A stretch of DNA of 64,000 nt, taken from Streptomyces hawaiiensis. Its GTDB lineage: Bacteria; Actinomycetota; Actinomycetes; Streptomycetales; Streptomycetaceae. Shown here one piece after another: positions 11,397-53,919 of the stretch (positions are counted from its first letter, which is position 1; the number at the start of each line of letters is the position of its first letter). A program made the position numbers and the translations under genes. Where the stretch lies: assembly GCF_004803895.1 (NCBI RefSeq), contig NZ_CP021978.1, positions 1,860,001 through 1,924,000 of the forward strand, given 5' to 3'. The notes under the pieces were generated by a model. That model was not told the DNA's origin. It made no database searches and saw only the letters and a list, made by a program, of their open reading frames with translations.

Positions 11397-12452
11397 TCAG
11401 GCCGAGGCGCGCGCCTTGCGGTAGAGGATCGCGCCCGCGAGCAGCGCGCCCGCGCCGGCCGGAAGGGCGAGGCCGAGGGGCAGGTCGCTGCCGGTGCTGG
11501 CGAGCTGGGCGTCGCCCTCGGGCTGGGTGACGAACTGGCCGCCCGGCTTGTTGCCGTGCGAGGAGCCGCCCGAGGTCTCGCCATCGGTGGAGGGCGGGGT
11601 GCCCGGGGTGCCGGGGTGGCCGGGCTCACCGGGGTTGCCGGGGTGACCAGGAGTGCCGGGGTCACCCGGGTTGCCGGGGTGACCAGGGTCACCCGGATGT
11701 CCGGGGTTCCCCGGGTCGCCCGGGTCACCGGGGTTCCCCGGATGGCCGGGGTCGCCCGGCTGGCCCGGGTTCTCGTGGCCGCCGCCGGGCGGGGTGCCGT
11801 GGTGGCCGCCGCCACCGTTCGAGCAGTCGTTGCCCGTGCTGGGGTTGCCGATGCCGATGACGTCGACGCTGTTGCCGCAGACGTTCACCGGCACGTGGAC
11901 CGGCGCCTGGACGTGGTTGCCGGAGCCGACGCCGGGTGAGTCGGTGGCGTGTCCGTCCGCGTGCGAGCCGCCGTGACCGCCGTGTCCCCCCGACGACGGT
12001 CCGCCGCCCCCGTTGGCACACGAATTGCCCAGCGACGGGTTGAGCACACCGATGACGTCGACGCTGTTGCCGCAGACGTTCACCGGCACGTGGACCGGCG
12101 CCTGGACGTGGTTGCCGGAGCCGACGCCGGGTGAGTCGGTGGCGTGTCCGTCCACGTGCGAGCCGCCCTTGCCGCCGTGTTCGCCGTATCCCCCCGACGA
12201 CGATCCACCGCCCTGGTTGGCGCACGAGTTGCCCACCGAAGGGTTGAGCACACCGACGACGTTGACCGTGTTCCCGCACACGTTGACCGGCGCGTGCACC
12301 GGCGCCTGCACCGAGTTTCCGGAGAGCACGCCGGGCGAGCCCGACGCCGAACCCTGGGCGCCCGAGTCGGCGTGAGCGGAGCCGCCCGCGGCGGCGATCA
12401 CGCCGGTCGCGGCCGCCACGGTCATCAGACCCTTGCGGGTAGCCTGTCGCAT
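11397..12452 (-). CDS. chpC: Long chaplin, cell-wall anchored, three chaplin domains and collagen-like stalk
   Basis: A 351-residue protein: signal peptide to about residue 29, chaplin domains at about 39-79, 107-147 and 172-212 (each with SPGV..GN, VNVCGN and a second Cys in GN[SD]C), nineteen uninterrupted X-Pro-Gly triplets at 228-284, a Ser/Gly linker, the sorting signal LASTG at 317-321, a hydrophobic helix and a basic tail (YRKARASA). Class E sortase would anchor it to peptidoglycan, where chaplins assemble amyloid-like hydrophobic fibrils on aerial hyphae. Position next to chpH matches S. coelicolor chpC, but long chaplins known to me have two chaplin domains and no collagen-like stretch. 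Confidence 0.9.
   Translation of the reverse strand: MRQATRKGLMTVAAATGVIAAAGGSAHADSGAQGSASGSPGVLSGNSVQAPVHAPVNVCGNTVNVVGVLNPSVGNSCANQGGGSSSGGYGEHGGKGGSHVDGHATDSPGVGSGNHVQAPVHVPVNVCGNSVDVIGVLNPSLGNSCANGGGGPSSGGHGGHGGSHADGHATDSPGVGSGNHVQAPVHVPVNVCGNSVDVIGIGNPSTGNDCSNGGGGHHGTPPGGGHENPGQPGDPGHPGNPGDPGDPGNPGHPGDPGHPGNPGDPGTPGHPGNPGEPGHPGTPGTPPSTDGETSGGSSHGNKPGGQFVTQPEGDAQLASTGSDLPLGLALPAGAGALLAGAILYRKARASA
11601..11771 (-). repeat. Collagen-like (X-Pro-Gly)19 coding repeat
   Basis: 171 bases encoding 19 consecutive X-P-G triplets (X = N, Q, D, H, T, E) between the third chaplin domain and the sorting signal. Charged and His residues occupy the X position throughout. The DNA is a run of near-identical 9-base units and is prone to slippage. 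Confidence 0.9.
11856..12165 (-). repeat. 195-base direct duplication of a chaplin module
   Basis: The segment beginning at 11856 recurs 195 bases later at 12051. The first 103 bases are identical, then one mismatch, then identity again. The unit is one chaplin domain plus its Gly-rich linker (65 codons), so domains 2 and 3 arose by recent in-frame duplication; domain 1 is more divergent. Confidence 0.85.
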
Positions 12453-12513
12453 TGCTGAATACCTGCCTTCGACCCTGTCTCGAATTCTTCTCGAATTCCG
12501 CGAAAGAAGCGTT

Positions 12514-12548
12514 CGGTCCCGGAGCGCATGGCTCGCGCTCCGGGACCG
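12514..12548 (-). terminator. Terminator downstream of chpH
   Basis: Perfect 14-base arms CGGTCCCGGAGCGC and GCGCTCCGGGACCG around a 7-base loop, 35 bases beyond the chpH stop. It separates chpH from the long chaplin gene. Confidence 0.75.
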
Positions 12549-12582
12549 ATGGCTTTGGACTCCCCTCAGTGAGGGGGACGCA

Positions 12583-12816
12583 TCACTTGTTGATGCAGGT
12601 GTTGCCGAAGGCGGGGTTCAGCAGCCCGATCACGGAGACCGTGTTGCCGCAGACGTTCACCGGGACGTGAACGGGCACCTGAACAACGTTGCCGGACAGG
12701 ACGCCCGGGGAGTGCACGGCGGCACCCTGAGCACCCGAGTCGGCGACGGCCAGGCCCGCGCCCGCGAGAACCAGCCCACCGGTGGCAGCCGCAGCAGCGA
12801 CGACCTTCTTGATCAT
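12583..12816 (-). CDS. chpH: Short chaplin ChpH
   Basis: A 77-residue secreted protein: signal MIKKVVAAAAATGGLVLAG..., mature part beginning near DSGAQGAAVHSPGVLSG, one chaplin domain with the Cys pair (VNVCGN and GNTCINK). Length and sequence match ChpH of S. coelicolor. Start ATG at 12816 is fixed by AGGAGGAAT immediately upstream. Short chaplins form amyloid fibrils at air-water interfaces, lower surface tension and coat aerial hyphae together with rodlins. Usually expressed during aerial growth; I see no unambiguous developmental sigma site. Confidence 0.96.
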   Translation of the reverse strand: MIKKVVAAAAATGGLVLAGAGLAVADSGAQGAAVHSPGVLSGNVVQVPVHVPVNVCGNTVSVIGLLNPAFGNTCINK

Positions 12817-12966
12817 TATTCCTCCTAGTTGGCAAAGCGACCCATCTTGCGATCGCATTACCTGTAACGAGGCTGGAGTAATGAGGCTACGAGCTTATGG
12901 TCGCATTCACTCTTCCCAGTCGATTCCGTACGCGCGACCGAATATCACCGTTTCGCAGGGGTGGTT

Positions 12967-51899: not shown

Positions 51900-53345
51900 T
51901 CAGCGGATGCCGGTGAGGTGGGCGAAGACGACCACGTTCCCGGAGTAGCCCTTCCTGCGGTCGTAGCTGCCGCCGCAGGTGATCAGACGCAGCTCGGGGC
52001 GGCCCCGGGCGCCGTACACCTCCTGGCTCGGGAAGTGCGCCTTCTCGTACGACTTGATCTTGTCGACCGTGTAGACGGCGATCCGTCCGTCGGCGCGGCG
52101 GGCCTTGACGATCCGGCCCCGTTTCAGCTCGGTCAGCCCCGCGAAGACGGCGGGCCCGCTGTCCGTGTCCAGATGTCCGACGGCCACGGCGGTGCCCTGC
52201 TCGCCGGGCGAGGCGCCGTGCCGGTACCAGCCGACGAGCTTGGGGTCGTCGTCCGGCGGTGCGGCGAGGCGGCGGTCGCGGTCGAGGCCGAGGTCCATGA
52301 CCGGGGCGTCGAGGCGGAGGTAGGGGATGAGGAGGCGGGTGGCCCGGGAGCGGGGCAGGGGGCGGAGGCCGGCCGGGGGGCGAGGCTTCCGGGTGACGGG
52401 GGTGACAGGCCGGGGAGCGGGGCGTGGGGCTGCGGGCTTGGGAGCGGGGCGCGGGGTGGCGGCTCCGGGCCGGTGGTGCGACGTGACGGGCCTGTCTTTG
52501 CGGAGCCCGGGGCGTGAGGGCTCGGGGGTGCGGGGCCTCTGGGTGCGGGGGCCGTTGGCGGCGGGGGCGTTGACGGCGGGGCCGGGTGTGCGGGCCCCGT
52601 TGACGGGCGGCCCGGGGGCGCGCCCGTTGCCGCGGGCCGCGGCCGGAGGGGATGCCTGTGCCCGGGGTGGGCCGGTGCGGGGGCCGGGGGCGGTGGAGTC
52701 GGCGGGCAGGGCGGCCGTGCCGGTGCCGGTGCCGGCCGGGTGGGCGGCCGTGGTGAAGTCCGGCGGGAGGGCCGTCACCGTCGCGCCGGGCTCTTCGCCC
52801 CGATCCCAGCAGACGCCGACCACCAGCACCAGCGAGACGGCCACCACGATCGTCCGCGTCAGCCGGTAGGCACGCCTGCGGTACCAGGGCCTACGGGGCC
52901 GCCGGGACCACGCCCCGGGGACGCCGGCGGCTGTGGTGTACCGCCCCGCCGGAACGGCGCCGGAGCCGGATCCGGAACCACGCCGGACCACCGGGGCCGC
53001 GGCGGACCCGGCCCCACGCCGCCCCGGCGACACACGGGCAGGACCGGCCCCGCCCCCGCGCCGCCCCGACGGCACGGCGGCAGAACCGGAGCCGGACCGG
53101 GTCCCGAGGCCGGCGGCAGCGCCCCGCCGCCCCACCGGAACCGCGACAGCCCCGGCCCCGCCCCCGCGCCGCCCCGACGGCACGTCGGCGGAACCGGAGC
53201 CGGTCCCACGCCGAACCGCCGAGGCGGCGCCGGGCCCGGCACCGCCTCCACGCCGCCTCACCGACCCGGCGTCGGACCCGAGCGCGCCCCCGCCCTGCCC
53301 GAGACGGGCGGAGCGATCCGTGGAACGTGGCCTACGCGGCGCCAT
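51900..53345 (-). CDS. Class F sortase with long Arg/Gly/Pro N-terminal region
   Basis: A 481-residue protein. Residues 1-155 are cytoplasmic low-complexity sequence rich in R, G, S, A and P. One membrane helix follows (RTIVVAVSLVLVVGVCW, about 164-180), then a 150-residue Pro/Ala/Arg-rich wall spacer and the sortase domain (RLLIPYLRLDAPVMDLGL onward). Catalytic His is in VAVGHLDTDSGP and Cys in RLITCGGSYDRRKGYSGNVVVFA. Class F enzymes are typical of actinobacteria and usually 200-260 residues. The start overlaps the end of the upstream partner gene by 14 bases. ATG at 53345. Confidence 0.88.
   Translation of the reverse strand: MAPRRPRSTDRSARLGQGGGALGSDAGSVRRRGGGAGPGAASAVRRGTGSGSADVPSGRRGGGAGAVAVPVGRRGAAAGLGTRSGSGSAAVPSGRRGGGAGPARVSPGRRGAGSAAAPVVRRGSGSGSGAVPAGRYTTAAGVPGAWSRRPRRPWYRRRAYRLTRTIVVAVSLVLVVGVCWDRGEEPGATVTALPPDFTTAAHPAGTGTGTAALPADSTAPGPRTGPPRAQASPPAAARGNGRAPGPPVNGARTPGPAVNAPAANGPRTQRPRTPEPSRPGLRKDRPVTSHHRPGAATPRPAPKPAAPRPAPRPVTPVTRKPRPPAGLRPLPRSRATRLLIPYLRLDAPVMDLGLDRDRRLAAPPDDDPKLVGWYRHGASPGEQGTAVAVGHLDTDSGPAVFAGLTELKRGRIVKARRADGRIAVYTVDKIKSYEKAHFPSQEVYGARGRPELRLITCGGSYDRRKGYSGNVVVFAHLTGIR
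52957..53215 (-). repeat. Imperfect tandem repeat in sortase N-terminal region
   Basis: Units containing CCCCCGCGCCGCCCCGACGG recur (about 53054 and 53165, 111 bases apart), with related GRRG-coding copies between, making a low-complexity GRRGGGAG-type peptide. Confidence 0.6.
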
Positions 53346-53919
53346 CGGGGCGGCGACGGAGCCGGAACCAGACCGTCCCGGCGACGGCGGCCAGGCCGAC
53401 CGCGGCCGCGCCGGTGACCGGCGTGAAGGCCTCACCGCGGGCAATGCCGCCACCGCCGGCGGGCGGGCCGCCGACCGGCGTCGTCGGCTTGGAGGTCGGG
53501 CAGTCGACCTTGAACACCTTGAACTTGCCGGCGCCGTGGGCCTGGTCGGTGAGCCACGTCAGCTTGTACTGCCCGTTGGGCAGGTCGACGGCCGCGGTAC
53601 GGCCCTGGCCGGTCGGGTCGGCCGTGAAGCTGCCGGTGCGCGTGGCCCCGCCCGGAACCTCCGGCTGGGTCTGGATGGTCCAGTTGACCTTCTCGCCCGA
53701 GTCGAAGTTGAACGCGGCGAGGTAGAAGTCGCAGACCTTCGGGTCGTTGCGCTGGTTGTCCGAGGCCGTCGTGCTGGCGTGGATCTTGACGTCTCCGTTG
53801 TCCCCCGGGACCGGAGCGGCGACGGCGGACACCCCGCTCAGGGTGGTCCCTGCGAGGGTGAGGGCGGCGAGGACGGCGGTACGGGTGCCGGCACGACGCG
53901 CGAGGGGTACGACGGGCAT
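53332..53919 (-). CDS. Secreted membrane-anchored protein, probable partner of class F sortase
   Basis: A 195-residue protein with a signal peptide (residues 1-32, ending near AVAAPV), an extracellular domain (VCDFYLAAFNFDSGEKVNW ... TSKPTTPVGG) with two Cys, and a C-terminal FTPVTG (165-170) followed by a hydrophobic helix and RLRRRPDGAA. That layout mimics a sorting signal (LPxTG-type) though the motif is atypical. ATG at 53919 is set by GGAGG seven bases upstream. It precedes the sortase gene in the same operon and overlaps it. Confidence 0.82.
   Translation of the reverse strand: MPVVPLARRAGTRTAVLAALTLAGTTLSGVSAVAAPVPGDNGDVKIHASTTASDNQRNDPKVCDFYLAAFNFDSGEKVNWTIQTQPEVPGGATRTGSFTADPTGQGRTAAVDLPNGQYKLTWLTDQAHGAGKFKVFKVDCPTSKPTTPVGGPPAGGGGIARGEAFTPVTGAAAVGLAAVAGTVWFRLRRRPDGAA

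Follow-up and report, generated by a model that had tools for sequence, protein, structure and literature searches.

A Three-Domain ChpC Chaplin of Streptomyces hawaiiensis With an X-Pro-Gly Stalk, Probably a Form of a Rapidly Changing Proline-Rich Wall Spacer

The chpH–chpC Locus

The window, that is, the whole stretch of 64,000 nt of Streptomyces hawaiiensis DNA analyzed here, carries on its minus strand an open reading frame (ORF) of 351 amino acids with an ATG start (11397..12452), which, judging by Pfam matches and synteny, encodes the orthologue of ChpC, the long, wall-anchored chaplin of the chpH–chpC locus. Upstream of it are located a short chaplin with one PF03777 domain, the predicted chpH orthologue (12583..12858, minus strand), and then an M20 peptidase. 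The naming of ChpC is based on this gene order, with the short chaplin and the M20 peptidase as neighbors, and the naming of ChpH, on Pfam and on Streptomyces albus, where chpH and chpC have the consecutive locus tags XNR_5152 and XNR_5153 (PMC3937824) and hence adjoin each other as in the window. The features shared with the Streptomyces coelicolor ChpC are PF03777 domains, three GN motifs, two cysteines, and the LAXTG motif. A 16-pair hairpin, terminator-like by the scan criteria, lies between the two genes (12513..12549, minus strand), and may cut or tune the read-through from chpH to chpC; approximately as many are expected by chance (one found, 0.9 expected from shuffles). A scan for sigma-70 promoters yielded none.

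The protein consists of a signal-peptide-like start, three chaplin domains, a stalk, a tail, and the sorting signal, in this order, the start and the final LASTG...LYRKARASA part being judged by eye. PF03777 matches three stretches of the ORF (247.8 bits), all encoded on the minus strand: domain 1 with the core SPGV...CANQ (12213..12338), domain 2, which is a hybrid (12009..12134), and domain 3 (11814..11939). Three GN motifs and two cysteines, the features of a chaplin domain (PMC13251363), are present in each, with a fourth GN in domain 3, and Gly/Ser/His-rich spacers separate the domains. The stalk (11601..11771, minus strand; amino acids 228–284) comprises exactly 19 uninterrupted X-Pro-Gly triplets, with D, N, H, T, Q, or E as X, which in the collagen register read Gly-X-Pro, and it matches PF01391 (Collagen; amino acids 229–285) with 39.9 bits at a cut-off of 27.2. 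It is followed by a Gly/Ser/Thr-containing tail and by LASTG, a LAXTG-type sorting signal starting at amino acid 317 (11490..11504, minus strand), with a hydrophobic stretch and RKARASA behind it. Three chaplin domains, a sorting signal, and a 19-triplet stalk are what a sequence-only reading had described, and all of them stand; its placement of the stalk “between” these elements is made more precise, as the stalk follows all three domains and precedes the wall anchor. That reading had also taken ChpA–C to have two chaplin domains, in agreement with the descriptions of these proteins in S. coelicolor, which have two domains and approximately 225 amino acids (PMC5618241, PMC8166509), compared to three domains and 351 amino acids here. 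Since only about 225 residues are reported, their linkers are probably shorter, the comparison being one of reported lengths only.

No further domain capable of trimerization was found by Pfam in the ORF. In a single-chain AlphaFold model of poor quality, built with an alignment of 26 sequences, the mean pLDDT is 35, and the stalk has the highest values, 50–63; for ChpA–C, AlphaFold models with large disordered regions have been reported (PMC13251363).

The source genome has eleven chaplin domains in seven genes. Four of these genes encode short chaplins and three encode long ones, with three domains in the ChpC described here and two in each of the others, which lack an X-Pro-Gly stalk.

The Collagen-Like Match

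Chance or a wrong reading frame as the origin of the stalk was rejected, given the 351-amino-acid ORF, the Pfam matches, the tandem repeat seen in the stalk DNA, and the diversity of codon third bases. In the 19 units, third bases of the proline and glycine codons vary freely, the pairwise differences averaging 0.62 and 0.64, respectively, while the first two bases never differ, as follows from the definition of the run. An antisense PF01391 match (42.8 bits) contains two stops and was rejected as a gene; we attribute it to the CCNGG repeat, which reads Pro-Gly on both strands. Out of eight PF01391 matches in the source genome, only the chpC ORF and its antisense score about 40 bits or more, the rest reaching at most 25.4 bits. 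Two of the remaining six, both at one place (5897132–5897461), pass the cut-off only with their neighbors counted in. Four of the six weak loci, viewed in the frame of the longest glycine run, which may differ from the matched frame, comprise three Arg/Gly- or Ala/Ser-rich stretches and one without a clear run. Sequence matches of the stalk in PDB are collagens and repetitive fibrils, uninformative beyond the Gly-X-Y pattern, and a literature search with the entry codes of one such match retrieved nothing.

Long Chaplins and Their Linkers in Streptomyces

The M20 protein is present in all 159 Streptomyces genomes searched, the source genome among them. From the M20 matches listed, we hand-picked 120 other Streptomyces genomes, leaving out some short contigs, some assemblies in many pieces, and near-duplicates, and took the DNA beyond the M20 gene, so that neither the chaplin nor the stalk served as bait. 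A long chaplin frame lies in this DNA in 120 out of 120 genomes, usually preceded by one short chaplin; in three loci (L157, L159, L160) the HMM found the long chaplin alone, in L074 the contig ends before the sorting signal, and in L075 the domains lie in two frames. Such an apparent split of chpC is also seen in L056 and L058, and could stem either from a true frameshift or from a sequencing error, the gene being rich in repeats.

The linker, which separates the last chaplin domain from the sorting motif, is 37–243 amino acids long in these orthologues (median 91.5). Glycine at every third position for at least ten triplets is observed in 40 of the 120 orthologues and for at least 19 triplets in 20, so the stalk from the window is one among many, which does not support the view of its collagen-like segment as a peculiarity of this protein. 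Proline-every-third runs of at least ten triplets are still more frequent (68 of 120); at this length, proline runs without glycine runs occur in 31 orthologues, and the reverse, in three. Examples of linkers with proline, but not glycine, in every triplet are HHPGKPHEPGKP, NPEEPGNPEEPG, DTPDNPGTPDNPG, and TPETPVTPETP, and in many orthologues glycine is replaced by Asp, Glu, Asn, or Ser. The same tendency is seen after clustering of the chaplin parts at 80% identity, with proline-only runs (at least eight triplets) in 28 of 76 clusters and glycine-only runs in two. The proline fraction of the linker ranges from 0.11 to 0.46 (median 0.25, coefficient of variation 0.24; below 0.15 in five of 120), and the glycine fraction, from 0 to 0.46 (median 0.22, coefficient of variation 0.56). 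The GXY runs that the sequence-only reading proposed to look for in chaplin homologues are present in many of them; family-wide, glycine is less well kept than proline.

Between related species the linker changes in both type and length, and some linkers are Gly-His or Gly-Thr rich. Together with the tandem structure of the DNA, this would suit an origin as a mutational by-product, with GC-rich slippage expanding nine-base units and any hydrophilic linker tolerated, whatever its structure. This account is, however, unlikely: in 87 of the 120 linkers, at least 99% of shuffles with the same composition show a weaker proline period (for the glycine period this is true in 48), and in 76 stalks the third base of the proline codon is diverse (0.58), while the first two hardly vary (0.03), which suggests that the units are old and that proline has been held. 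For the glycine codon the respective values are 0.67, compared to 0.11 and 0.19; all these codon values are partly conditioned by the choice of segments.

The X position is occupied by N, H, T, E, or D in approximately 81% of 1585 triplets, and long HPG runs occur in some orthologues, as could be expected if a stalk rich in His and Asp were, beyond spacing, to bind metal ions or wall polymers at its surface. Yet the composition of X is not conserved between relatives, whose stalks may be nearly all NPG, EPG/NPG, or TPG, and we regard such a function as the least probable of the readings considered.

The linker of L186 has glycine at every third position over 31 triplets, alternating GGP, GDH, and GNP with proline often missing, and is, of all the linkers compared, the foremost candidate for a repeat driven by glycine.

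Proline and Glycine in the Repeat

The triplets allow for a direct comparison of the two residues. X-Pro-Gly segments were scored at period three with equal weights for proline and glycine, and losses were then counted inside the segments. Six or more intact triplets were present in 71 of the 120 linkers, whose segments contain 1137 intact triplets, 240 that lost glycine, 27 that lost proline, and ten that lost both. As events within tandem arrays are not independent and the raw losses are inflated by tandem spread, p-values mean little here, and counts of linkers and clusters are safer: glycine loss is found in 53 linkers and proline loss in 13. Family-wide, glycine is not more constrained than the other positions.

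The near clade behaves differently. In 14 hand-picked near relatives, 256 of 268 triplets are intact, five having lost glycine and seven, proline, so here the glycine register is kept as well as proline, and all 19 triplets of the window are intact.

These data bear on the possibility of a true collagen-like triple helix, with three ChpC chains zipped via Gly-X-Pro and nine chaplin domains carried on a rigid rod. It would account for 19 perfect triplets, for the PF01391 score above the cut-off, for PF01391 matches with an E-value of 0.001 or better in nine of 26 aligned long chaplins, and for the well-kept glycine of the near clade. The position of proline, on the other hand, argues against it. 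In the 40 glycine runs of at least ten triplets, proline occupies X in 0 of 741 triplets and Y in 694, and every proline of the stalk from the window is at Y and none at X, whereas characterized bacterial collagen-like proteins, as summarized in a review (PMC3707005), have over 30% proline at X and 5% at Y. Hence, despite passing the Pfam cut-off, the stalk lacks a feature of known bacterial collagens. The family-wide replacement of glycine, far exceeding that of proline, points in the same direction, as do the lack of a further trimerizing domain among Pfam matches, the chaplin domain itself being an amyloid unit, and PDB matches that say nothing beyond the repeat pattern. We consider the triple helix decidedly unlikely, and regard the stalk as most probably a variant of a rapidly changing, proline-rich spacer.

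The streptococcal collagen-like proteins Scl1 and Scl2 (PMC3707005) resemble the protein from the window in having glycine at every third position and a wall attachment domain. They differ in the N-terminal globular domain, which in Scl proteins aids assembly and has amyloid-type chaplin domains in its place here, and, as in bacterial collagens generally, in the position of proline, at Y and not X in the stalk, and in glycine, which across ChpC orthologues is not the best-kept position. A version limited to the X-Pro-Gly clade, in which Gly-X-Pro triple helices with proline at Y only would form wall-anchored trimers with six to nine chaplin domains nucleating amyloid, is given even less weight than the general one. 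More broadly, caution is due when a bacterial protein anchored to the wall matches a collagen model of Pfam, as such a match does not necessarily imply a triple helix.

The Additional Chaplin Domain

Domain 2 is identical to domain 3 over the first 86 of 126 aligned nucleotides and thereafter resembles domain 1: its last 36 nt have an identity of 0.83 to domain 1, compared to 0.56 to domain 3. The overall identity of domain 1 is 0.81 to domain 2 and 0.71 to domain 3. Domain 3 corresponds to the second domain in two-domain relatives, with a DNA identity of 0.915–0.961 in six near relatives. Such a mosaic is the product expected from unequal crossing-over between the first and the second domains of a two-domain gene, and we regard domain 2 as a recent hybrid formed within a two-domain chpC.

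According to the HMM, 116 of the 120 orthologues have two chaplin domains, L084 has three, and L075, L176, and L186 have one each. As the domain number varies among orthologues, we do not treat the presence of two domains, compared to three in the window, as defining for ChpC. The closest relatives among the matches listed (L068, L228, L229; M20 identity 97–98%) have two domains and glycine runs of 16–19 triplets, and two domains are also observed in all 13 additionally taken genomes, which include L228 and L229. Three or four domains are found in eight of 48 loci retrieved partly via the stalk peptide; for this reason these loci were not used for frequencies, but some of them are cited as examples or contribute to the near-clade set and to the 76 stalks. 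Given these eight loci, extra domains probably arose more than once. The comparison indicates that the number of chaplin domains changes by recombination. Having three domains and having the stalk do not depend on each other: the closest relatives combine two domains with the stalk, and in several relatives with three domains just 4–7 X-Pro-Gly units are consecutive. The long chaplin of L015 has four chaplin domains.

Linkers in Other Genera

The comparison was extended to 40 further loci, of which 15 other genera of the family supplied 39 and a different family of the order, one. A readable long chaplin with a sorting motif was identified in 36. Proline-every-third runs of at least ten triplets occur in four of them and glycine runs in three, one of these being a GG-rich stretch. 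The median proline and glycine fractions are 0.28 and 0.11, respectively. Many linkers contain proline-rich repeats such as KPPTT, TTKPP, and VTPP, while some are Gly/Thr-rich or acidic. The more general feature is thus a proline-bearing low-complexity linker, with X-Pro-Gly as one form of it.

Proposed Role of the Linker

Taken together, it is highly probable that this ChpC owes its extra domain to unequal crossing-over, and that its X-Pro-Gly stalk is an extended polyproline-II or disordered spacer passing through the wall. A proline-containing low-complexity stretch does lie between the chaplin domains and the sorting signal, and the approximately 100 residues separating the last domain from LASTG fit a wall-spanning spacer. 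By analogy with the characterized ChpC, the protein would be secreted, and a class E sortase would cut LASTG and join it to peptidoglycan; in S. coelicolor, ChpC is attached via LAXTG by the class E sortases SrtE1/2 (PMC5148588), and the source genome has nine sortase-family matches. The three chaplin domains would then join short chaplins in building the amyloid sheath of aerial hyphae; such co-assembly has been proposed for the domains of long chaplins, as a means of tethering the sheath (PMC5618241), and the additional domain would add one more amyloid-forming unit. The spacer would reach across the wall from the anchor and place the domains at the surface, and its sequence could drift freely as long as it stays extended, hydrophilic, and supplied with proline, mostly at every third residue; in the lineage of the window, glycine after each proline would give it the look of collagen. 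Several observations fit a plain spacer less well, namely, glycine kept as well as proline in the near clade, long glycine-every-third runs more regular than mere filler needs, glycine-only runs such as that of L186, and 11 of the 120 linkers with just 37–45 residues.

The interpretation offered by the sequence-only reading is hence retained in part: the protein is a long chaplin, and a stalk that keeps the amyloid domains at a distance from their anchor is the favored reading, with a proline-rich linker at the same place in orthologues, while an exceptional collagen segment and a triple helix are not supported, proline being better kept than glycine across orthologues and situated in long glycine runs at Y, never at X.

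A comparable arrangement is known for the staphylococcal adhesin SdrG, whose proline-rich wall-spanning domain bears the LPXTG motif (PMC7616799); the likeness consists in proline-rich sequence beside the sorting signal, whereas the protein family and the repeat are different, the Streptomyces version being often X-Pro-Gly. A literature search on wall-spanning proline-rich proteins retrieved nothing joining all the terms sought. Likewise, no link of chaplins to collagen was found among the matches listed, in a search whose coverage lacks most subscription papers. The one paper containing “chaplin”, “collagen-like”, and “Streptomyces” uses these terms for unrelated things; “three chaplin” in the passages retrieved refers to three proteins rather than three domains; and annotated collagen-like sequences in Streptomyces are mentioned in PMC4448552.

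ChpC, ChpE, and ChpH have been described as the minimal chaplin set, or as one that is always present (PMC3079736, PMC3937824, PMC8166509), and adding ChpH and ChpC to a ChpE-only strain restored, at a reduced rate, an aerial mycelium that was robust and sporulated (PMC3079736). As ChpC belongs to this minimal set, the way it joins the sheath to the wall matters. The comparison reveals a tether of widely differing length and type of repeat, in which proline at regular intervals is the commonest regular feature.

The window also contains a sortase-family gene (51900–53453, minus strand; PF04203 at 51915–52331) encoding a protein with a long Pro/Arg-rich N-terminal part.
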